Shown in pieces: positions 14,090 through 44,956 of a stretch of DNA of 64,000 nucleotides. How positions within the stretch are numbered: position 1 is the stretch's first letter; each line of letters begins with the position of its first letter. The stretch covers positions 6,708,501-6,772,500 of the forward strand of contig JAGUCH010000002.1 in NCBI GenBank assembly GCA_019096065.1, written 5' to 3'. The notes below the pieces were generated by a model. That model did no database searches, had not been told where the DNA came from, and was given only the letters and a program-made list of their open reading frames with translations. A program made the position numbers and the translations under genes. Source of the stretch: Paracyclopina nana (taxonomy: Eukaryota; Arthropoda; Copepoda; Cyclopoida; Cyclopettidae).

Positions 14090-14731
14090 ATGAACAGCGA
14101 TGGCTATCCTGCTGATATATTAGGTGCAATGGGCGACATAAGACGGCAATTACATGCTAAAAACAATGTCATTATCGATTTGGAAACCAAAACCGAGGCA
14201 ATCGAGAGAAAATTGAGAGATTCGACGGCACCAAACTTGGAAAAATTACGAGAGCTGAACCGGGTTAAGAAAGCCAAGTTAGCTGAATTAGATGCTAGCG
14301 TAGCATCAAAAGCAAGAGTCAGGGATAGAGAAATGCAAGCTCACTCTGGTGCTATGGCTAATTTGGATTTATTGGAGGAGAAGAAAGAAGAAATTGCTCA
14401 GAAATACCACGAGGAAAAAGTTCTTAGTTTCAAAAATGGGCGAGATTTTTTTGTTGCGGCTCAAGAAGTGTATCACGCAACTATCATGCTAGGCGGCACT
14501 CTTGATATTTGTTCGAGGAGTGATACCGAAAATGCATCGTCAGTTGCCGACTTGCTGAAACAAACCGAGGCCATTAAGATGAATGTCAGAAATAAAAGGA
14601 ATCGTTTGGCTGCTAAGCCTTCCCTTTTAAATTGCCAGCGACTTGAGCAAGAAATTAACAAAAATCAAGTCTTATCCATGGACATTGATGAACGAGAGGA
14701 ACGCGTACAGCTTTACTATAAATCCCTGTAA
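14090..14731 (+). CDS. Coiled-coil protein of unknown function
   Basis: A single-exon ORF of 213 residues starting at ATG 14090. Residues ~10-120 and ~160-210 are rich in Glu, Lys, Leu and Arg with heptad-like spacing, predicting two coiled-coil stretches around a less charged middle (YHATIMLGGTLD). I do not recognise the family; size and shape would fit a kinetochore or vesicle-tether subunit, but no motif supports that. An AATAAA at 14736-14741 lies directly after the stop. RCL1 follows on the same strand with a U-rich acceptor-like tract between (14778-14790), so the two may be co-transcribed. Splicing from a donor overlapping the stop (CCCT/GTAAAA) to that acceptor is an alternative but gives a poor-looking tail. 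Confidence 0.7.
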   Translation: MNSDGYPADILGAMGDIRRQLHAKNNVIIDLETKTEAIERKLRDSTAPNLEKLRELNRVKKAKLAELDASVASKARVRDREMQAHSGAMANLDLLEEKKEEIAQKYHEEKVLSFKNGRDFFVAAQEVYHATIMLGGTLDICSRSDTENASSVADLLKQTEAIKMNVRNKRNRLAAKPSLLNCQRLEQEINKNQVLSMDIDEREERVQLYYKSL

Positions 14732-14735
14732 AAGA

Positions 14736-14790
14736 AATAAAGCTCACAGGCTCCAACTACGACCTAGTTTCCTCAAATCTTTTCTTTCAG
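14736..14790 (+). promoter_or_regulatory. Poly(A) signal followed by acceptor-like pyrimidine tract upstream of RCL1
   Basis: AATAAA at 14736-14741 is followed about 45 bases later by TCTTTTCTTTCAG ending at 14790, 90 bp before the RCL1 start codon. This order (poly(A) signal, short gap, U-rich tract, AG) is what intercistronic regions of trans-spliced operons look like. A cis-spliced 5' UTR is the plain alternative. Confidence 0.4.
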
Positions 14791-14880
14791 AAAGATCTGG
14801 CTTCTCTGTTCGAGAGTTGTACGAATTATAAACAACAACAACGCTCGCACGTGAAGAACAGCTAGAAGAAAAGTGCCAAA

Positions 14881-16014
14881 ATGAATTCCAGCAGGAGCTC
14901 ACATATATTAGAGTACGAGGGAAGCAACTATTTGAGGCTCAGGCTTGTCCTTGCAACCTTGAGTGGGAAATCATTGAGAATCACCAAGATCCGTGCCAAA
15001 GACACTTCTCCCGGACTCAAAGAGTTCGAGGCTAGTCTCATCAGACTTTTTGACAAGATCACAAACGGATCAAAAGTTCAAGTCAGCGAGACTGGCACAG
15101 CTTTAACTTACACCCCAGGGTTGCTAGTTGGTGGCAAAGTGGAGCACGACTGTAGCCTTGAACGTGGCATTGGATACTATCTGGAGCCTCTGTTGTCCAT
15201 TGCACCATTTTGTAAGAATCCGCTCAATGTCACATTGCTAGGAGTGACCAATAATGACGTCGATCCGTCACCGGATCTTTTGAAGCAAAGTGCTCTGCCT
15301 GTTCTCTTGAAATTCATTTTGGTGGAAGAGGGTCTAGAATTGAAGGTTGAGAAGAGGGGATGTCATCCTGGAGGAGGTGGGCAAGTGAAATTTTCCTGCC
15401 CGGTTCGCAAAACCCTGAGGCCGATTCAGTGGATTGATCAAGGCAAGATCAAACGAATTCGAGGCGTGGCTTGGGCCACTAGACTTTCTCCTGCAGTACC
15501 GAACAGAGTAATTGAATCAGCCAAGCAACTTCTTCTCAAGTTCATCCCCGATGTGTACATCTACAGTGATCAGAGCACTGGTGGCAAGTCAGGAAAGTCG
15601 CCTGGCTTTGGACTTGTCTTAACAGCAGAAACGACTACAGGCGCGCATTTGACTGCAGAAGTCGTGTCGAAACCTGCGAAGCAAGGCTCCGAGCCCACTA
15701 TTCCAGAAGATCTTGGCAGTGAAGGAGCAAAACAATTGCTTGAAGAAATCTTTCGAGGTGGCTGTGTCGACTCAACAACGCAAAGTTTGGCCATGCTTAT
15801 GATGGCATTGGGGCCCAGAGATGTCTCCAAAATTGTCACCGGGCCCTTGTCGAACTATTCGGTTGCGTTTTTGAGACACTTAAAGGACGCTTTTGATGTT
15901 ATGTTCAAACTGGACGAAGTAGAAAATGAGGACGAATTGCAAGTGGGAGCTGATAAAGTTGCTCTGGCTTGCGTTGGCGTTGGCTTCACAAATCTTAGCA
16001 AAAGAACAACATAG
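14881..16014 (+). CDS. RCL1: RNA 3'-terminal phosphate cyclase-like protein, rRNA processing factor
   Basis: An intronless ORF of 377 residues (human RCL1 373). It starts with LEYEGSNYLRLRLVLATLSG and contains SPGLKEFEASLIRL, GRGIGYYLEPL-like ERGIGYYLEPL and HPGGGGQVKFSCPV, the features of the RTC/RCL1 fold. RCL1 lacks cyclase activity and acts in the nucleolus with BMS1 in pre-18S cleavage in the small-subunit processome. An AATAAA overlaps 16019-16024 right after the stop. It lies between a coiled-coil gene and RPC9 on the same strand. Confidence 0.95.
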   Translation: MNSSRSSHILEYEGSNYLRLRLVLATLSGKSLRITKIRAKDTSPGLKEFEASLIRLFDKITNGSKVQVSETGTALTYTPGLLVGGKVEHDCSLERGIGYYLEPLLSIAPFCKNPLNVTLLGVTNNDVDPSPDLLKQSALPVLLKFILVEEGLELKVEKRGCHPGGGGQVKFSCPVRKTLRPIQWIDQGKIKRIRGVAWATRLSPAVPNRVIESAKQLLLKFIPDVYIYSDQSTGGKSGKSPGFGLVLTAETTTGAHLTAEVVSKPAKQGSEPTIPEDLGSEGAKQLLEEIFRGGCVDSTTQSLAMLMMALGPRDVSKIVTGPLSNYSVAFLRHLKDAFDVMFKLDEVENEDELQVGADKVALACVGVGFTNLSKRTT

Positions 16015-16249
16015 CCCCAATAAAGTTATCTCGTTAAACAATGCTGTCTGTAGAATATTTTTGCGATTGAGCTAAGCATGCTTTTCGTCAATTGACATGG
16101 CTGAAGTTGGCTTTCAAGTCTCATGCTGGTTGCTCTCGAGTTTGGAGAGGTTTTTGCAGTGACGTCAAAATGTTCCGCACACCTATGAGAATGGAAAAGA
16201 ATAACAAAATGTAAACACTCAACAGTGACCAGACGACTACCCTGATATC

Positions 16250-16684
16250 ATGGAAATTGTCGAAGTTTGTGATGCCGTGCCTTGCAATGCTGAAGTTTTG
16301 ACATTTTTACAAGAGAACCGCAAAACTCTTGCTCAAAAATCCGCCAAGGACAAAACTCAAGCCAAAGCTGCCACCGTAGTTCTTGAGGCATTGAACTACT
16401 TGGAAAAAACTCCTGCCGGAAAATTGTCTAAGACGTTGACTCAAGATAAGCTTAGTGAGTTTTCTGGTTCCTTGGACAAGTACAATTTGACAGCTGCTGA
16501 AAGGCTGCAAATCATGAATCATTGCCCGAGAACTGCTGTGGAAATTCAATTGCTTATAGAAGACAGTGAAGAGCGGCTAACAGAAACTCAGGTTGAGGAA
16601 CTACTGGAAATCGTCAGAGTTCAACTTTTGGAGGAGGGGAAGATTGACAACGAGCCAATGGAAGACCAGGCTGATGATTCGTAG
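16250..16684 (+). CDS. CRCP: RNA polymerase III subunit RPC9 (CGRP receptor component)
   Basis: An intronless ORF of 144 residues (human 148). The N-terminal half begins with a helix (EVCDAVPCNAEVLTFLQENR). The core LTAAERLQIMNHCPRTAVEI and IEDSEERLTETQVEELLEIV match the human LTKAEKLQLLNHRPVTAVEI and VEESEERLTEEQIEALL closely. RPC9 pairs with RPC8 to form the Pol III stalk that helps initiate 5S rRNA and tRNA transcription. RCL1 ends 235 bp upstream on the same strand; an acceptor-like GGTTTTTGCAG lies about 90 bp before the ATG and is followed by a CRE-like TGACGTCA. Confidence 0.93.
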   Translation: MEIVEVCDAVPCNAEVLTFLQENRKTLAQKSAKDKTQAKAATVVLEALNYLEKTPAGKLSKTLTQDKLSEFSGSLDKYNLTAAERLQIMNHCPRTAVEIQLLIEDSEERLTETQVEELLEIVRVQLLEEGKIDNEPMEDQADDS

Positions 16685-29877: not shown

Positions 29878-31138
29878 TCAAGACTTTTGCCCCTAGCCGT
29901 TTACCCCTGATATGTTTGCCCCAGGCCGTTTGCCCCTGTAGACATTTGCCCCTAAGATTTTCGTCCTTAGAGACAGTCACCCCTGAGACATTTGCCCTTT
30001 GGATTTTTGCCCCTAGACAAGTTTGCCCCAAGGATTTTTGCCCCTGGATATATTTGCCCCTTGGACTTTTGCCCCTTGGACTTTTGCCCCTTGGACTTTT
30101 GCCCCTTGGACTTTTGCCGATTGGACTTTTGCCCTTTGGATTTTTACCCTTGGATTTTTGCCCCTTGGATTTTTGCCCCTTGGATTTTTGCCCCTTGAAT
30201 TTTAATACCAAGGGATGTTTGCCTCAGGCACTTTTGCTCCAAGTACCAGTGAAATTTTGCCCTTGGGAATTTTGCTCTGGGTTATTTTGCTCGTGGGTAG
30301 GTTGCCACTGCACTTTTGACTCGAGTTGACAATTTGTCCAATTTGAAATGAACTTTCAGCACCTATTGGACAATAAAAACTGCCTAAAATAAGTCATTTT
30401 AGGGATAAGATTATATATTGCCTCAATCCAATCAGCTTATTAAAAAATTAATAAAAATATTATTTATAAAAAGCAGAAAAAAATTGATTGTTTTGGATAG
30501 GATCAGGTTAGGTTAGGAGTCCGGTTGAAGAAGGGTCTTGTAAAATTATTATAAAATGCAAATCATCAGGAAATAGTCAAGGGAAAATATTGTTGGCAAC
30601 CATTTTGGAGGCAAAAGTCCAGGGGGGAAAAGGCCAAAGGGTAAAAGTACAAGGGGCAAAAGTCCAGGGGGCAAAAGGCCAAGGGGCAAAAGGCCAAGGG
30701 GCAAAAGTCCAAGGGGCAAAAGTCCAAGGGGCAAAAGTCCAAGGGGCAAAAGTCCAAGGGGCAAAAGTCCAAGGGGCAAAAGTCCAAGGGGCAAAAGTCC
30801 AAGGGGCAAAAGTCCAAGGGGCAAAAGTCCAAGGGCAAAAGTCCAAGGGGCAAAAGTCCAAGGGCAAAAGTCCAAGGGGCAAAAGTCCAAGGGGCAAAAG
30901 TCCAAGTGGCAAAAGTCCAAGGGGCAAAAGTCCAAGGGGCAAAAGTCCAAGGGGCAAAAGTCCAAGGGGCAAATATATCCAGGGGCAAACATCTAAGGGG
31001 CAAGCGTCTTCAGGGGCGAAAATACCAGGGGCAAACATGTCTAGGGGCAAATGTGTCTAAGGGAAAATGTCTTGGGGGCAAAAGTCTTTAGGGGCAAACA
31101 TCCTAGGGGTAAATGGCTAGGGGCAAACGGCTAGCAAA
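29878..31138. mobile_element. Foldback-type element with arms of 15-bp tandem repeats
   Basis: The left arm (about 29878-30310) is a tandem array of a 15-bp unit CCTTGGACTTTTGCC with variants. The right arm (about 30605-31138) is the same array in reverse orientation, about 20 near-perfect GGGGCAAAAGTCCAA units. Outer ends also mirror each other: CCCCTAGCCGTTTACCCC on the left and GGGGTAAATGGCTAGGGG on the right. GGATATATTTGCCCCTTGG near 30043 has its exact complement near 30970. About 290 bp of AT-rich spacer separates the arms. Because the unit is 15 bp, every frame stays open, producing long spurious ORFs that are not genes. Confidence 0.85.
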
Positions 31139-33797: not shown

Positions 33798-36026
33798 TTA
33801 AGCAGGAACAAAATCCTTAAGCATAGTCTCCGTGTCAAGAAATTCTTCACTGTCATCACTCTCGTCTATACGAGCAACCTTCGGTTTGGGCTGCTCTTCT
33901 AAGATTACACGGTTTTTGACCGCTTCTGGGATATAAATAGAGTCTCGACTGAAATCGTATGCCTCATTTACAATGCGATCGCTTTCCTCCCTGGATGGTA
34001 GGGCTTCGAGATCGGGGTAATCCTTGTTGTCCTTAACAGAAGCTTCCTCTTGAAAAGGTCGCTTCTGAGACCTCTCTTTCAACTTTTCCTTCATAGCATG
34101 AATTTCTCGACTTGCATCGTTTGCCTCTGGATGGATAGTCTCAGCGGGGACAACTTCAGAGGGAGCTTCTACCTGACCAAGTGCAGGCTCCACTGAAGGC
34201 TTGATAGACAGAGAGTTGAGTGAGCGACCAGATGTCTCCATGTAGAAAACATGAACTTTCATGAGGTCTGCCTTGATTTCATCTATAGTTTTAACTTGCA
34301 AAGGCAAATCCAAATGCAGAGATGATCTCAAAGGGTGAATCAAATTCGTGCATAGGCTCAGGCCATGCTGGCACACATATTTGATACTTCCAGATTCCCG
34401 TGAAGCTGCTGCTTGGAATAAATGACTGAAGAGCTGCAAAGAATGGCTGGCCTTGCAATGCCCTTTTTCCAGGAGAACAACCAAAGTCTCATACAGATGT
34501 CTTCTTGCAATATCAGGTAATAGTGATTTTGCAAATTCTTGCTCCATGCCAAGTCCAAGCAGAACACATTGAATCTGCTTCATCACACTTTGATCTAAGA
34601 GAGGGCCTGTGGTCTTAAGTAGGACTCCCAATGCTTTTAAGGAGGCCTCCATCAAAAGCAAGCTTTTCATTCTTTTGCCATTCTGGAGAATGGGCTCGTC
34701 CACAGGTTTCTTTGTGTTCTTTTTCCTTGGAGCTTTCAACAAAGCTATGTCTTGATCAGGAGGCAGGATGTCACTGAGAATGTAACTAGTCAATTCGGTT
34801 TGATCCAAACCTGAAGTAGCCTCAAGCGATTCACACAACTCAATCACCAATTCATAGGTAGCAACCCTCAAGGAGTCCCAAGGCTCAGTAAAGTTTCTCA
34901 AGTCACTCAAAACTTCAACGACAAGCTTCGTCATCTCGGGCACATAAAGAGCTAAGGATTGTTTGCAAACTCTCAGCAGCGTCATCACAACTCTCATCGA
35001 GGATGTCATGAGCTGCGGCAGAACGAAAAGGAGAATCTTGGATTCATTTCCAGCGGACTTTGCCAAATCGCTCAGATGATTTTCGAACACGCGAAAGATC
35101 ACATTGAACAATAAGCCAGGTCTGACTGCCTTTGGATGGGGAAAAGGAACGAGAAGCAGTTCACTGATGCATTGGCACAAAATGTCAAATTGGTTTTGGT
35201 GAAAAGCCGCCTTGCTGAACAGATCTTTGCTGGGACTCGTGAGCATTTGAAACGGCTCGGATGACCTCACATTACTGCTGGATGGTTGGAAGTTGACGGA
35301 AATCGATAGAATATTCGCTAGAACGTCCTCCATAGTGAACGTCAGTCGCTGAAACATGGTCACAAAGTTAGCCTTATGATGGATTCCTTCTTTGCCTCCA
35401 CCTCCAAGTCGTGGCATCAAGGCTAAGCATTGTGCCAAGGTCTTGCTTGACAGTTTGGATTGAGAGGTCATATTCGCCAAAAGGAACTTCTCCACTTTAC
35501 CTTGATTGGAGCCACATGACCCGGGGTAGTTATGGAACAGGACTTGAATAGTCAGCACAGCATCATTTTCTAAACCACTGCACTTGCCAGTCATATTCAA
35601 AAGACCTTCGATTATAGGAGCGACAATGGTGGTTAAATATCGGGATATTTCGGGAAATTGAGGGGCTCTTCGTACAATGGTCCTCAAAGCCGAGCACGCT
35701 AGCCTTAAGAACCCTGGTCCCACTTGGCACTTTTGTATCATAGGATGTACAGCTTTTAACCAACTGGATCCTTGCTCCAGGAAAACTGGATCCGAGCACT
35801 CCATGCATAGTGCCTGCAGGGCAACAAGACCATTAGTTTTGCCATTGGACTTTTTACTATGTAAGCAAGTGTTGATGGATGCAATAAGTGATTGCAGCAT
35901 TTTTTCTGAACATGTATGCAATACTCCATTTGCTTTTAGTTGCTCAGTATAGCCAACAACAATGTCGATGTCTTGGTCCTCGTGTAAGATGTCATGGCCA
36001 TCGATCAAATCAAGTAACATGGACAT
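33798..36026 (-). CDS. PELP1: PELP1/Rix1-like 60S ribosome maturation factor
   Basis: A single exon of 742 residues from ATG 36026. The N-terminal ~550 residues are helical-repeat (RIX1/PELP1 domain), e.g. TNGLVALQALCMECSDPVF and FLRLACSALRTIVRRAP. The tail is acidic and ends ETMLKDFVPA, resembling the end of PELP1 (TAAMLADFID). In the Rix1 complex PELP1 works with TEX10, WDR18 and SENP3 in ITS2 processing and pre-60S release. The start codon directly follows TTTTTTTCATTGCAG, a textbook acceptor, and NOP2 ends only 28 bp upstream on the same strand. AATAAA (minus strand, 33791-33796) sits directly after the stop. Confidence 0.85.
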   Translation of the reverse strand: MSMLLDLIDGHDILHEDQDIDIVVGYTEQLKANGVLHTCSEKMLQSLIASINTCLHSKKSNGKTNGLVALQALCMECSDPVFLEQGSSWLKAVHPMIQKCQVGPGFLRLACSALRTIVRRAPQFPEISRYLTTIVAPIIEGLLNMTGKCSGLENDAVLTIQVLFHNYPGSCGSNQGKVEKFLLANMTSQSKLSSKTLAQCLALMPRLGGGGKEGIHHKANFVTMFQRLTFTMEDVLANILSISVNFQPSSSNVRSSEPFQMLTSPSKDLFSKAAFHQNQFDILCQCISELLLVPFPHPKAVRPGLLFNVIFRVFENHLSDLAKSAGNESKILLFVLPQLMTSSMRVVMTLLRVCKQSLALYVPEMTKLVVEVLSDLRNFTEPWDSLRVATYELVIELCESLEATSGLDQTELTSYILSDILPPDQDIALLKAPRKKNTKKPVDEPILQNGKRMKSLLLMEASLKALGVLLKTTGPLLDQSVMKQIQCVLLGLGMEQEFAKSLLPDIARRHLYETLVVLLEKGHCKASHSLQLFSHLFQAAASRESGSIKYVCQHGLSLCTNLIHPLRSSLHLDLPLQVKTIDEIKADLMKVHVFYMETSGRSLNSLSIKPSVEPALGQVEAPSEVVPAETIHPEANDASREIHAMKEKLKERSQKRPFQEEASVKDNKDYPDLEALPSREESDRIVNEAYDFSRDSIYIPEAVKNRVILEEQPKPKVARIDESDDSEEFLDTETMLKDFVPA

Positions 36027-36054
36027 CTGCAATGAAAAAAACGACAAACATTAA
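36027..36054 (-). promoter_or_regulatory. 28-bp NOP2-PELP1 intercistronic gap ending in a splice acceptor
   Basis: Between the NOP2 TAA and the PELP1 ATG there are 28 bases, with a T7 run and CATTGCAG abutting the ATG. There is no room for a promoter and no poly(A) hexamer. It looks like a trans-splice acceptor within a dicistronic transcript; a cis-acceptor used from an upstream exon is the alternative. Confidence 0.5.
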
Positions 36055-38115
36055 TTAATTGACCTTTTGCTTCTTTTTCTTGGGCTTCTTTTTCTCGACG
36101 CTTTCAACATTAGATACAACATCGGCAGAAGTAGCCTTCTCCTCCAGCTCCATCGCTTGATCTTCGCTAATTTTCTTCGATGGTTTCTTCTTTTGAACCT
36201 TCACGCTGTCCTTAGTCTGAGAAAGCATTTCAGAAGCCTGCTTTTTCTTCATTTTCTTCATCTTTCGCTCCAATTTGCGTCCACTATCCTTTTCTACTGT
36301 GATTGGAGCCTCTTCTTTCTCCTCCTCCTCAATTGCTTTGTCAGCTACTTTAGTGGGCTTGGCTTGCTCCTCCTCATTATTCTTAGGGTCATTATTGAAG
36401 CTGGTGGGTATCTTGTTATCCAACTTCTTGAATTTGGCCACAAAGAAACCATCCATGTTGTGCGAGTGAGGGTAGAACCTTCTGCAGTGCTCAAGGCTGG
36501 GATGGTAGCGAAACTCCTTGAATTTGGTGAAACCCTTGACTCCAAAGTCAAGACCAGTGGAAACGAGCTTGACATTTCGCTTTTTGAGAGCATAATCCAC
36601 TATGGCCTCATTCTCCTCTGGAAGAACTGAACAGGTGGAGTATACAATGTAACCTCCAGTTTTGGACTTGGCATCTACGCAATCAATGGCAGCCAAAATG
36701 AGCTCTTTTTGCAGATGAGAGCACAATTGGAAGTCACGGTGGTCCTTGGACGTCTTGACAGACTGATCTTTTGCAATGACACCAGTGCCTGAGCAAGGAG
36801 CATCAAGAAGTACACGGTCGAACCCTTTCATAATGCCTGGCAACTGACGACCATCGTAAGTGCACACAACTGTGTTCGTGATACCGAGGCGGTGCAAATT
36901 ACCCACGACAGCCTTGCACCGATTCTTGTTAGCGTCATTGGCATACAACAAGCCAGTGTTCCTCATCAGGGCGGCAATGTGCGTAGTTTTGCCACCCGGA
37001 GCAGCTGCCATGTCGAGGACCTTCTCATTTTCTTGAGGAGCCAAAGCCATTACAGGCAAAAGAGATGAGGCACCCTGGATCATATAGTGACCAGCCAAGT
37101 ACTCTGGAGTGGCTCCGAGGGGAACTTGAGAGCTGTAAACCACCAGACCAACTTTGGACCATTTTCCAACGGGATCCAAGTTCACACCTCTATTGATCAG
37201 GGCTTGGGCCAAATCACGCCTCTTCGTTTTCAAGCTATTGGTGCGAATCGTCATTGGCCTTTGCACCTCGTTAGCTTCCAGTGCCTCGACAAGCTCATCT
37301 AGATTGAACACGTCCATGAACTTGGACATCATGTACTCGTTATAGTCGTAGTACGAGCAAAGATCCCTTCTAAGGCACTCTAGGTATTCTTGCCTACTTT
37401 TTTCTGGGTCACGCTTTTCTTTGAAGTTCTTGAGGACATCAATAATATCCTTGATTCTGCTCTGGATAATTTGCAAGTCAGGAGGGCGACTTTTCTCTTG
37501 TTCGATTTCTTGACCGGAGGGCAACTGGAATACTTCCTTTTCGCCAATGTTGAGCTTCATCTCCTCCTCTGCTTCTTTAGCTTCTCGTGCCAACTTTTTC
37601 TTCAATTTTTTGGCCTTCTTTTCGATGGGGAACTCATCATCATCTTCATCCATTTTATCAACCGACTCATCCGAATCGTCCTCATCTTCGTCGGACTCGG
37701 AACCACCTACTTCGTCGGAATCAGAGCCTCCTTCATCGTCTTCCTCCTCCTCGCCATCGCCAAAATCATCGGCTAAATCTTCATCGTCATCAGAGTCTTC
37801 CATGAGCTTTCTCTTTTGACCCTTGGGCTTCAACCAATCGTCATTGTCATCGGTGAATCCGTTAGTAGCCATTTCTTCGAGCTCGTCCTCACTTTCTTCC
37901 TCCGTGACTTCATCGTCAGATACAGCTTTTTTCGCAACTGGACGTGCCTTTTTTTCAGTGCGGTTCTTGAGCCGTTTCTTCTGCCTGCTACTAAGTGCCT
38001 TTTCATCTGGCTTCTTCTTGATTGCACCTGTCTCGATCTTAGGAGGTGCTTGCTTTTTAGCCTTTCTTCCTGGGCCTTTTTTAACAGCCTCTGTAAAATC
38101 TCCTTTACGTCCCAT
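36055..38115 (-). CDS. NOP2: NOP2/NSUN1 rRNA (cytosine-5) methyltransferase
   Basis: An intronless ORF of 686 residues. The N-terminal ~200 residues are Lys-rich then strongly acidic. The catalytic domain has MTIRTNSLKTKRRDLAQALI, DMAAAPGGKTTHIAALM (SAM motif I), LLDAPCSGTGV (motif IV Cys) and YSTCSVLPEENE (motif VI catalytic Cys), and a family-specific CRRFYPHSHNMDGFFVAKF. The tail is a Lys-rich nucleolar signal. It methylates a conserved cytosine of the large-subunit rRNA and is needed for 60S assembly. It is divergent to CYB561D2 (395 bp between starts) and upstream partner of PELP1 in the tightest gene pair of the window. Confidence 0.97.
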   Translation of the reverse strand: MGRKGDFTEAVKKGPGRKAKKQAPPKIETGAIKKKPDEKALSSRQKKRLKNRTEKKARPVAKKAVSDDEVTEEESEDELEEMATNGFTDDNDDWLKPKGQKRKLMEDSDDDEDLADDFGDGEEEEDDEGGSDSDEVGGSESDEDEDDSDESVDKMDEDDDEFPIEKKAKKLKKKLAREAKEAEEEMKLNIGEKEVFQLPSGQEIEQEKSRPPDLQIIQSRIKDIIDVLKNFKEKRDPEKSRQEYLECLRRDLCSYYDYNEYMMSKFMDVFNLDELVEALEANEVQRPMTIRTNSLKTKRRDLAQALINRGVNLDPVGKWSKVGLVVYSSQVPLGATPEYLAGHYMIQGASSLLPVMALAPQENEKVLDMAAAPGGKTTHIAALMRNTGLLYANDANKNRCKAVVGNLHRLGITNTVVCTYDGRQLPGIMKGFDRVLLDAPCSGTGVIAKDQSVKTSKDHRDFQLCSHLQKELILAAIDCVDAKSKTGGYIVYSTCSVLPEENEAIVDYALKKRNVKLVSTGLDFGVKGFTKFKEFRYHPSLEHCRRFYPHSHNMDGFFVAKFKKLDNKIPTSFNNDPKNNEEEQAKPTKVADKAIEEEEKEEAPITVEKDSGRKLERKMKKMKKKQASEMLSQTKDSVKVQKKKPSKKISEDQAMELEEKATSADVVSNVESVEKKKPKKKKQKVN

Positions 38116-38510
38116 GCTTCAATGAGATATCTTCAACCTGGCGATTTTCACGTGTTATTATTGTTATTGTGAAAATTGAAAACAACGCGTCGATTTAGAG
38201 CCGAGTCGGTTTAGTAATCACAATGTACTATTTTACAAGAACGCATCAAGCATAGGTTTAGCTCAAGTAATGTGGGATAAGTAATTTTGGAAACAATCAT
38301 AAAAGCAAAGAGTAGGTTCTTAATTTCTTAAGTAGTCACCTTTTTTCATAAAAAAGTGAAATTTGCCTTAAAAATTGTGGTGTACTTCGGACGGCAATAA
38401 CAAACTCTCTGGCTTCAGTGCCTTAGTGAGCGAACGGTGAACCGTTAATCTCTTCTCAGCCATCGAGGGAAAAGTGACACCACCAAATTTTTACCTGCAA
38501 CTTTTTCACC

Positions 38511-42064: not shown

Positions 42065-43111
42065 CTAGGATTTTATGTTTTCAAAGAATTTAGTCTGCTC
42101 CACGGATTGCGCATAATACAAAACTTGCAACTGATGAGCAAAAGCTGTCTGTTCAAGTCCCATCATCATGAATTCTGCTCCCATTTGAGAGAATGGCCAT
42201 TGCTTAGGAGGACTTATTTTCTCCACTGACACCTTCTTTTCGCCACCGAATTGGTGCTGAACAAAGTTGTGCATTGTGTCAATACCATCAATCAGGCCTA
42301 GATCAGCCGCCTTTTGGCCGACCCAAACCTCTCCGTTGAATATTTTCTCATCATTTGCTTTCAGCTTGCCTTGCCTTGCACTTTTCACCTGATTCTTAAA
42401 GTTTTCATGCAAAACGGCCAAGATGCTTTTGATGATAGCTTCATCTTTCTCGTCACGGGGCTTGAAAGGGTCTGAAAAAGCTTTGCTTTCTCCAGCTGTC
42501 AATGTTCTCCGTTCAATTCCCAACTTTTCAATTGCTTTATGAAGTCCAAATGATTGGGATATGACTCCAATGCTTCCAACAATGGAACTTTTAGAGGCAT
42601 AAATTGTAGGGGCTGCAGTAGCTAGCCAATAACCTCCAGAGGCTGCCATGTCCTCAATGAAGCTTATGACAGGCACTTTGGCTTCAGATGATTTTTGTCC
42701 GATGAAGTCAGCAATCAGCTCAGACTGAACTGCTGATCCTCCAGGTGAGTTGATGCTAAGAAATACGGCTTCAAGTCTCTTCACTTTGAAAGCTTTGTCA
42801 ATGAGCTTTTCTGTGGTTTGAATATTGAGGGGCTTTTGCCCTCCAAATCGCGGTCCAGAGCCTGATGCAATCATGCCATGCAAATTAATGACAGCAATCT
42901 TGGGCTTCTTCTTGTTGTCAATCCTTCTTTTCCACGATTGAGGCAGAAATCTACCCAAGACACTTGGAGGCAACTCTTTGTTTTTCATTTGCCATGTTGA
43001 ATTAAACCTGGCATTGTAAAAGGGGCCTGTCCTGCGAGCTAACATTTTTGAAATGAGATTGCTAAACAGCTCAGTTGCATAAGATAGCACACCGTTGTTT
43101 TGGTCAATCAT
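42065..43111 (-). CDS. S49-family serine peptidase (SppA/SohB-type)
   Basis: An intronless ORF; the first in-frame ATG is at 43111 (348 residues), but the frame is open for ~20 codons upstream with no ATG. The S49 core is complete: KIAVINLHGMIASG, AVFLSINSPGGSAVQSELI, VISFIEDMAASGGYWLATAA and SIVGSIGVISQSFGL. The catalytic Ser158 (in ASGGYW) and Lys210 (in GESK) lie 52 residues apart, as in bacterial SppA, so it should be active. MLARRTGPFYNARFNS near the start resembles a mitochondrial targeting peptide. In bacteria these membrane peptidases degrade signal peptides. The family is bacterial and plastid-type and uncommon in well-studied animals. NOP58 ends 135 bp upstream of this ATG on the same strand. 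Confidence 0.85.
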   Translation of the reverse strand: MIDQNNGVLSYATELFSNLISKMLARRTGPFYNARFNSTWQMKNKELPPSVLGRFLPQSWKRRIDNKKKPKIAVINLHGMIASGSGPRFGGQKPLNIQTTEKLIDKAFKVKRLEAVFLSINSPGGSAVQSELIADFIGQKSSEAKVPVISFIEDMAASGGYWLATAAPTIYASKSSIVGSIGVISQSFGLHKAIEKLGIERRTLTAGESKAFSDPFKPRDEKDEAIIKSILAVLHENFKNQVKSARQGKLKANDEKIFNGEVWVGQKAADLGLIDGIDTMHNFVQHQFGGEKKVSVEKISPPKQWPFSQMGAEFMMMGLEQTAFAHQLQVLYYAQSVEQTKFFENIKS

Positions 43112-43170
43112 GCCAGCAATCACGAAACCTGCCTTCTCCTGATTCAGCGTGAGAGCGTTCCTGCTCAAAG

Positions 43171-43245
43171 CTTGTAAAATTGAAAAATGATTGAAAATTC
43201 ATTGTTCATGCACTCTCAAATAAAGAGGTTATTTTTACAGAGTAA
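43171..43245 (-). promoter_or_regulatory. NOP58-S49 peptidase intercistronic gap with acceptor-like tract
   Basis: Only 75 bp separate the NOP58 stop from TTTTTCAATTTTACAAG (AG at 43172-43171). No AATAAA occurs on the transcribed strand. After that AG the first ATG met (43111) is in frame with the peptidase, which supports use of this site as a 5' splice entry, cis or trans. Confidence 0.45.
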
Positions 43246-44956
43246 TTAATGAGCCTCTTTAGACTTCTTCTTCTTCTTCGTTTTCTTAGGGCTTGTAGAT
43301 GGTGGAATGTCCTCACTGAGAAATTAAAGAATTAAGAAGGCTTTCTCATTAAAGGAAGAATTATATGAATACCTATTGTCTTTTATACATGAAGGCTCTT
43401 TTTCTGCATCATCCTGCTCTTTGGTCTTCTTTTTCTTTTTCTTATTTTTTGCCACTTCAGTATCATCATCTATAACAATTTTTTCAACCCATTCTTCTTC
43501 AAATTTTCTCTTTTTTGTTAAGGTGTTGTCAGCAGCAGTCTTGTATTCAGTCACCTCAATTTTTGACTCATGTTTGTCAAATTTTGCACTTGCCTTTCCA
43601 GAACCACTTATTTTATAAGAATGCCCACCTTCCAGCATTCGTAACCTACCTTCAACTCTTGCTCGGGCTTCAATTCCCAACTCACCCTTTGTCAAAGACT
43701 CGTATCTGTATTGGAATTGAAAGTAATTACACGATGAAATGAAACAGCAAGAATTGTTCATACCTGGCCTCAAGTTTGATGTAAGTTGACAGATCTACTT
43801 TGTCTTTGCTAGCTTCCAATGACTCGGCAAGTGCGTCAGTACGACATGCAAGAGATGCCTTGGCTGCAAGCATTCTTGATGCTTTTCCTTTAAGTGCTGT
43901 TGAAGCATGGCCAACCACTTGGGCATGGTAAATAATACCATACTTAGGAGTGTCATGTTTCGTTTTCAGAGCCTTGAAAAGAGCTTTTTCAGCGCCCAAT
44001 ATTTGGACAGTTGACGCAGGATGCTTAGCCAAGTTGATTAGGGAACCAGCATGTGAAATAAGCCTTGCGCCTATCAACTCTCCCACAACAGCTGTCAAAT
44101 TGGGAGCGATTGCAATCATGCGGTTTTTCAAGTATTCATATAGCTGAGCCCGATACTCTTGAATCTCCATTATTTGCTCACATAGGTGCCGAATATTCAG
44201 CATATCAAAGTCAGAAATCTCTGTGCCCATGCTAACTTCTGCAGATTCCTTTACCCGAGCCTCTATCTCTTCAGGGAGGATGTCACTCAAGTCTGTGTCT
44301 TTACAATGATCTCTTGTACCCATAAGTTGAATTGCTCTAATGTATGCAATGTTATCTGCGACAATTTTACCCAATTCTGGAAAATGCCAACCATACCATT
44401 CTCTAGCTCGCATAATGTAGTTGTTCAGCTCTTTGTCAAGATCATCAAGAAGAGATATTGCTTGCACAATCATGGTGTCAATTTTGTCTGGACTGAACTT
44501 AAGCTGATACCGAGACAAGGAATGTCCCAGTCCCAAAGACATTGCCTTCATGTCTGCTTCTTCAACTTCTGGCATCAAATTGTTTAGCTGACCCCGAATA
44601 CAACGCATCAACTCACTAACTTTGCTGTCAGCGATACAATCAACTTTTAGCTCAGATTTTATCGACTGACCAAGCTTTGCATCTGCTACAGCAAGTTTCT
44701 CTTGAGCTTCTTTGGCAAACAACTTTTGTAGCATTTTTCTCAGACCCTTAGACATTTTGCCTTCTATGAGAGCTTCAGCAGACTTAAGGGCATCAGTGGT
44801 GTCACTGAATTTCTTGAACTTTTTCAGCTTAATGATATTTCCGGCAGATTCCGGTGTTTCAAAGTGTTTATAGAGATCATCACACTTCTTTAGTTTCTTT
44901 TCATCCAGAAGCTTGAAAATAGCAAATCCGGCTGGTGTTTCAAAGAGCACCAACAT
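43246..44956 (-). CDS. NOP58: NOP58, box C/D snoRNP core protein
   Basis: Three exons (44956-43764, 43705-43373, 43315-43246) join to 531 residues (human 529). The start MLVLFETPAGFAIFKLLDEKK is diagnostic. The coiled-coil and Nop domain follow, with REWYGWHFPELGKIV, NLTAVVGELIGARLI and PKYGIIYHAQVVGHAS (kink-turn RNA and 15.5K contact). The tail is a Lys-rich KKE-type sequence ending KKKKKSKEAH. NOP58 with NOP56, fibrillarin and SNU13 guides rRNA 2'-O-methylation. It is the first gene of a same-strand series with the S49 peptidase and CDC73. Confidence 0.98.

Follow-up and report, generated by a model that had tools for sequence, protein, structure and literature searches.

Signs of a splice-resolved transcription unit joining NOP2 and PELP1 in the copepod Paracyclopina nana

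Two 60S-assembly genes, NOP2 and PELP1, lie only 28 bp apart on the minus strand of a 64,000-nt window of the Paracyclopina nana genome (the window being the whole stretch of DNA that was analysed). The question that this locus raises is whether the two genes are transcribed as one unit and, if so, how the downstream message is set free from the upstream one.

The gene pair and its spacer

NOP2, an rRNA m5C methyltransferase of 686 aa, occupies positions 38115-36055 (stop TAA at 36057-36055), and PELP1, a RIX1-domain protein of 742 aa, occupies positions 36026-33798 (ATG at 36026-36024); both are encoded on the minus strand in a single, intronless open frame. The coordinates and the anatomy that a sequence-only reading of this DNA had given for the pair, with a same-strand stop-to-start gap of 28 bp, are correct, and its naming of the two as NOP2 and PELP1 is upheld by Pfam (Methyltr_RsmB-F, E = 3e-72, for NOP2; RIX1, E = 1.1e-21, for PELP1) and by solved structures (a NOP2-type 28S rRNA methyltransferase chain, 8fkt, E = 2.7e-184; a PELP1 chain, 9dum, E = 3e-20). 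We take PELP1 to be a member of a Rix1-type complex. Its RIX1 match starts at residue 34 of the protein and at position 28 of the profile, so that PELP1 apparently misses no N-terminal coding exon.

Signal strengths were derived from a home-made gene finder run on the window plus 20 kb on each side (104 kb), in which 49 introns were predicted. Donor and acceptor matrices were built from the 31 clean ones (48-270 nt, mostly 54-62; all predicted, none cDNA-confirmed), leaving out 18 doubtful ones that included the intron predicted across the NOP2-PELP1 spacer. The spacer itself (TTAATGTTTGTCGTTTTTTTCATTGCAG, 36054-36027, minus strand) is occupied over its whole length by an acceptor signal: a run of seven T at 36041-36035 is followed by a CAG at 36029-36027 that directly abuts the PELP1 ATG, which confirms the T-rich tract noticed earlier, and two overlapping branch-point-like TTAAT motifs (36050-36058, minus strand), recognized by the rule YTNAY, which was not fitted here, overlap the NOP2 stop and put the branch A 25 nt (36051) and 29 nt (36055) upstream of the exon. 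This 3' splice site scores 11.0 bits with a matrix not trained on it, equivalent to the 14th position among the 31 clean predicted introns. Only 42 of the 13,309 AGs on both strands of the 104 kb reach at least this score, and among the 260 AG|ATG sites in the same DNA the spacer is first by 4.6 bits (the runner-up has 6.4 bits); at the 19 predicted starts, 0.004 acceptor-ATG abutments of such strength are expected. Since the 28 bases of the gap form a complete acceptor signal that ends at the start of PELP1, the pair is probably one unit whose two messages are separated by splicing. The spacer also contains an ATG: on an unspliced mRNA it would open a short out-of-frame ORF (MFVVFFIADVHVT, 36010-36051, minus strand) that overlaps the PELP1 start, while splicing at 36026 would remove it.

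The distribution of promoter signals bears on the same point. A CACGTG E-box is found at 38149-38154 (no strand assigned), 33 bp before the NOP2 ATG; for PELP1, the nearest upstream CACGTG is NOP2's own, 2122 bp away, and the 300 bp that precede its ATG lack CANNTG altogether. The motif is a core-promoter signature of ribosome-biogenesis genes, present in a 500-bp window in 21 of 25 core fly genes of this class (PMC2570694), and it occurs 8 times in the 104 kb, as compared with an expectation of 11.4. RCL1, another ribosome-biogenesis gene whose name was confirmed, has a CACGTG 27 bp before its ATG; NOP58, also confirmed by name, has instead a CACATG 20 bp before its ATG, so that in this DNA not every such gene carries the CACGTG signature. 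That NOP2 has an E-box while PELP1 lacks one nearby is circumstantial evidence for one promoter.

Other features of the pair contribute less. The rough chance that 4284 nt of coding sequence remain intronless is 0.006; the intronless state of NOP2 and PELP1 is nonetheless weak support for an operon, because 4 of the 19 genes predicted by the gene finder are single-exon. The fusion of NOP2 and PELP1 by the same program is likewise a weak support, as it also fused NOP58 with SppA and gene6 with RCL1. It had been noted that the gap contains no poly(A) hexamer: this is true of the spacer, but AATAAA or ATTAAA is present within 250 nt of only 8 of the 19 predicted gene ends (within 28 nt for 6 of 19) and absent from the other 11, so that its absence is poor evidence for co-transcription and was dropped as such.

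Readings of the pair

What was originally described as a dicistronic unit is supported here in the form of one unit resolved by splicing: the acceptor, the E-box, the spacer ATG, the lack of an excess of cis donors in NOP2 and a second pair described below all point in this direction, and we consider it likely that NOP2 and PELP1 are co-transcribed and that PELP1 is released by splicing at 36026. According to the mechanism that we propose, the NOP2 promoter would drive one NOP2-PELP1 transcription unit; the spliceosome would recognize the 3' splice site in the spacer and yield a PELP1 mRNA starting at ATG 36026, while NOP2 would keep almost no 3' UTR; and the preferred donor would be a trans-spliced leader (SL) RNA that caps PELP1, as happens in the sea squirt Ciona, whose operon genes abut. 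From the genome sequence we infer that the genes are co-transcribed, that the acceptor is used and that the donor acts in trans, with decreasing confidence towards the last: a trans-spliced leader is the leading reading for the donor that joins the PELP1 acceptor, but a tentative one, which falls somewhat short of probable. That the pair behaves as an operon is on firmer ground than that it is an SL operon.

The main rival to a trans-spliced leader accepts the splice site but places its donor in cis: PELP1 would carry an upstream 5' noncoding leader exon joined to the spacer acceptor, and this exon would either be shared by both genes or belong to PELP1 only, in which case NOP2 would sit inside the first intron of PELP1. 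We regard this as possible, if rather doubtful. An arthropod needs no SL in order to share a promoter, and the best donor upstream of NOP2 is a good one (CAG|GTAAAA, 38489-38497 with the G at 38494, minus strand, 9.0 bits), some 380 bp upstream of the NOP2 start codon. However, this donor is upstream of the NOP2 E-box and only 17 bp from the ATG (38511, plus strand) of a divergent cytochrome b561 gene, whose exons were identified by Pfam; a leader ending there would probably have to begin within the b561 coding exon. It could also hardly be shared with NOP2 by splicing, since no acceptor above 3.4 bits is present in the 400 nt that precede the NOP2 start codon. About 1% of GTs reach 8 bits. 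The NOP2 coding sequence has no excess of cis donors: 2 of its 101 GTs reach 5.7 bits (6.4 bits each), versus 4.2% of the 6300 GTs in the window.

It is unlikely that no splicing is involved, that is, that an unspliced dicistronic mRNA is translated as such or that transcription of PELP1 starts separately in the T-rich tract, where TTTCATTG presumably resembles an initiator. A spacer devoid of hexamers fits read-through weakly, but the presence of a 3' splice site of full strength right at the ATG, and the recurrence of this arrangement in the second pair, would be left unexplained; in addition, an unspliced message would lose scanning ribosomes to the spacer ATG, and PELP1 has no nearby E-box for a start site of its own. 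Precedent for translation without splicing is nevertheless provided by the 159 annotated dicistronic gene pairs of Drosophila (PMC4528330).

Finally, it is very improbable that the spacer belongs to a 37-nt intron (AAG|GTCAAT to CAG|ATG, 36027-36063 with the donor G at 36063, minus strand) of a single gene for a NOP2-PELP1 fusion protein: the gene finder picked this intron and its removal preserves the frame (phase 0), but retention of frame has a chance of 1 in 3, the donor, which has C at +3 and scores 4.9 bits, ranks 30th against the 31 clean predicted introns, the length is below the shortest of these (48 nt, n = 31), so that neither the donor nor the intron length is normal, the analogous removal of 33 nt in the second pair shifts the frame, and NOP2 and PELP1 are separate chains in solved structures.

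Search for a leader RNA and for similar pairs

Among the results that weigh against the trans-spliced leader proposed in the sequence-only reading are that no SL RNA gene was found in limited searches and that the layout of the pair recurs in only 1 of 40 further sites. Four pattern searches, three of them with pieces of different types of copepod leader and the fourth with a generic pattern, turned up no SL RNA gene with an Sm site. With up to 3 mismatches allowed, the genome contains no match to a 27-nt piece of the calanoid copepod leader or to a 26-nt piece of a siphonostomatoid one. The core of the third copepod leader type gave, with at most 1 mismatch, 240 scattered matches versus 35 for the reversed control, an ill-matched control as it contains CG; its 8 exact matches showed nothing leader-like by eye. 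A generic donor-plus-Sm pattern, GGTA-N(15-44)-AATTTTTGG, was matched 257 times, versus 134 times for its control. Among the matches listed, on contigs C1 and C2, there are two families of repeated strings whose pairs are 99-100% alike over all 310 bp, and which for this reason look like dispersed repeats; a third family is represented by a single fetched copy, and Rfam recognized nothing in the five stretches fetched for this pattern. A scan for an Sm site plus hairpin over about 0.3% of the genome, with 25 5S loci left out, gave 4 matches, none convincing by eye, and the amphipod leader core CCCTTTACCAA is absent from 129 fetched loci.

In calanoid copepods SL RNA is carried by 5S rDNA arrays, and these were also considered as carriers here. 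Two such arrays, at C1:913544-939931 and C1:1277459-1285895, differ in structure: the units of one are about 470 bp long and contain two types of 5S, and those of the other measure about 346 bp. Rfam found only 5S in the 4 loci scanned out of 30; on visual inspection a GT and a run of T were seen in the spacer of one array, but there is no GT in the other, and the 5S-spacer candidate was therefore set aside. The regions upstream of U1 and U2 genes (n = 15) were tried as a probe for an SL promoter and rejected, as inspection by eye showed only a weak YTCAAA-like block near -55, which is too short for a search. A compact cluster of U2, U5 and U1 snRNA genes spans about 2.4 kb at C2:9132421-9134829 (L061, L068).

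The generality of the arrangement was assessed with the acceptor-ATG string TTTTTTNNNNNCAGATG, which occurs 97 times in the genome as compared with 38 times for its reversed control. Three recurring identical strings, assumed to be repeats, account for 23 of the 97 sites and were excluded; 40 sites were picked by eye for a pyrimidine-rich context and read over 360 bp each, PELP1 being the 41st and 33 being left unread. The ATG opens a frame through the end of the stretch in 7 of the 40, and a layout like that of NOP2-PELP1 is seen in one (L099, C3:7510219-7510578). In this second pair the C-terminus of a Canopy protein (PF11938, E = 8.5e-12) is followed by its stop, 29 bp and the CAG|ATG of a TIP30/HTATIP2-like protein; the latter identification has E = 0.006, with no Pfam match for the 43-aa piece. 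The acceptor scores 12.8 bits and has a branch-like CTGAC at -23, while the best of the 6 upstream GTs reaches 2.9 bits and would give an intron of 33 nt, whose removal would shift the frame on a hand reading. If one gene per 5.5 kb is assumed, a same-strand stop 10-40 bp upstream is expected at about 0.3% of sites by a rough estimate, and the corresponding rough chance of a layout like L099 is about 0.02 for the seven sites with an open frame and about 0.1 for all forty.

A two-gene scan of the fetched DNA returned 10 merged rows with NOP2-PELP1 at the top, the other 9 being predicted introns; it thus yielded no further tight pair, but it also overlooked L099 and is therefore insensitive on short stretches. 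As for the other predicted starts, an acceptor of at least 7.8 bits lies within 51 nt of the ATG in 3 of the 14 examined (NOP58, a gene for a 1402-aa zinc-knuckle protein, and b561) and in none of the remaining 11, so that the addition of a leader is no general rule among these starts.

Two other groups of closely spaced genes were observed. A gene for a bacterial-type S49 (SppA/SohB-like) peptidase (42065-43248, minus strand, PF01343), a type of enzyme unusual in an animal, follows NOP58 on the same strand after 134 bp; the gap between them contains weak acceptors only and no AATAAA. A three-gene row at 14090-16684 (plus strand) consists of a gene with no Pfam match, RCL1, and a gene for an Rpb4-family protein, which we interpret as RPC9/CRCP; the intervals between them are 149 and 236 bp. 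There, an acceptor of 11.0 bits is found 90 nt before the RCL1 ATG (the 95th percentile of the null is 10.9), but RCL1 has its own E-box, and an AATAAA follows the stop of the first gene.

Comparison with known systems

Operons resolved by leader trans-splicing are known in nematodes (PMC1657053), in tunicates and flatworms (PMC4122922), and in chaetognaths (PMC12460157). The closest model for NOP2-PELP1 would appear to be the Ciona operon. In the operons of Ciona intestinalis no intergenic DNA separates the genes, the first gene tends to have a single exon, and predictors wrongly merge the genes into one (PMC2760879); NOP2-PELP1 is similarly near-abutting, on one strand, with a single-exon upstream gene and fused by the predictor. 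The differences are that leader-bearing downstream mRNAs are documented in Ciona, whereas NOP2-PELP1 is known from the genome, and that the former is a chordate and the host of the latter an arthropod. Nematode SL2-type operons also hold genes that lie on one strand, are transcribed together and are separated at a 3' splice site, but in C. elegans about 100 bp separate the poly(A) signal from the acceptor (PMC1657053), as against 28 bp and no hexamer here. Two features of SL operons are thus observed in the sequence, the very short same-strand gap (28 bp) and the acceptor of 11.0 bits abutting the downstream ATG, the use of the latter being probable.

Among arthropods, Drosophila offers a different comparison. 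Besides the dicistronic pairs mentioned above, 130 of its genes have a common promoter and 5' noncoding exons, and one named pair contains a ribosomal-protein gene; these genes are, like NOP2 and PELP1, on the same strand and closely linked in an arthropod, but they depend on a cis-spliced common leader exon or on internal initiation, with no spliced leader (PMC4528330), and SLs are stated to be absent from insects (PMC7346339). For this reason an SL does not follow from the earlier argument alone, according to which separate promoters can hardly account for the arrangement: close same-strand pairs in Drosophila need none. In line with the accompanying statement that several crustaceans have SL machinery, leaders have been published for copepods, which use SL trans-splicing (PMC4664967), and for amphipods, in Parhyale (PMC5111886). 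NOP2-PELP1 departs from the copepod systems in that the tested pieces of their leaders have no leader-like match in its genome. The word polycistronic is absent from PMC4664967, and operons are given as unreported for copepods and amphipods as of 2021 in PMC7986045.

We would go one step further and suggest, with reserve and as a conjecture that may well be wrong, a Ciona-like operon system in this genome, with many same-strand pairs abutted by a gap-filling acceptor, an undescribed SL, and ribosome-biogenesis genes sharing a Myc-type promoter. In the literature searched no leader operons were found for arthropods, though copepods and amphipods have leaders; if true, these would be, so far as that literature shows, the first SL-resolved operons in Arthropoda. 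A compact arthropod genome with operons would provide a direct test of how operons originate once trans-splicing exists, and of whether growth genes join operons first. Should the donor prove to be in cis, the locus would remain a clear example of a promoter that two 60S-assembly genes probably have in common.

Some further features of the genome were recorded along the way. The cuticle RR domain (PF00379) has 80 matches and the repeat (CCTAA)n stands at 4 of 10 contig starts, both of which indicate an arthropod; the cuticle matches spoke against a glass sponge, which had also been considered. Contig C1 opens instead with 1.5 kb of (GGCCT)n (L050, C1:1-1500). Arginine kinase loci (L079-L082) are found on C8, C7 and C3; at L080, where two exons were compared (the other copies by eye), a two-domain arginine kinase, 3ju5 and creatine kinases match better than Limulus-type or other arthropod arginine kinases, the organisms behind these structures (two-domain, Limulus-type, other arthropod) being assumed by us. 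Within the window, a minisatellite at 29882-31134 is made of 15-bp units, GGCAAAAGTCCAAGG, preceded by units in the opposite orientation; it is open in several frames and gives rise to false ORFs.
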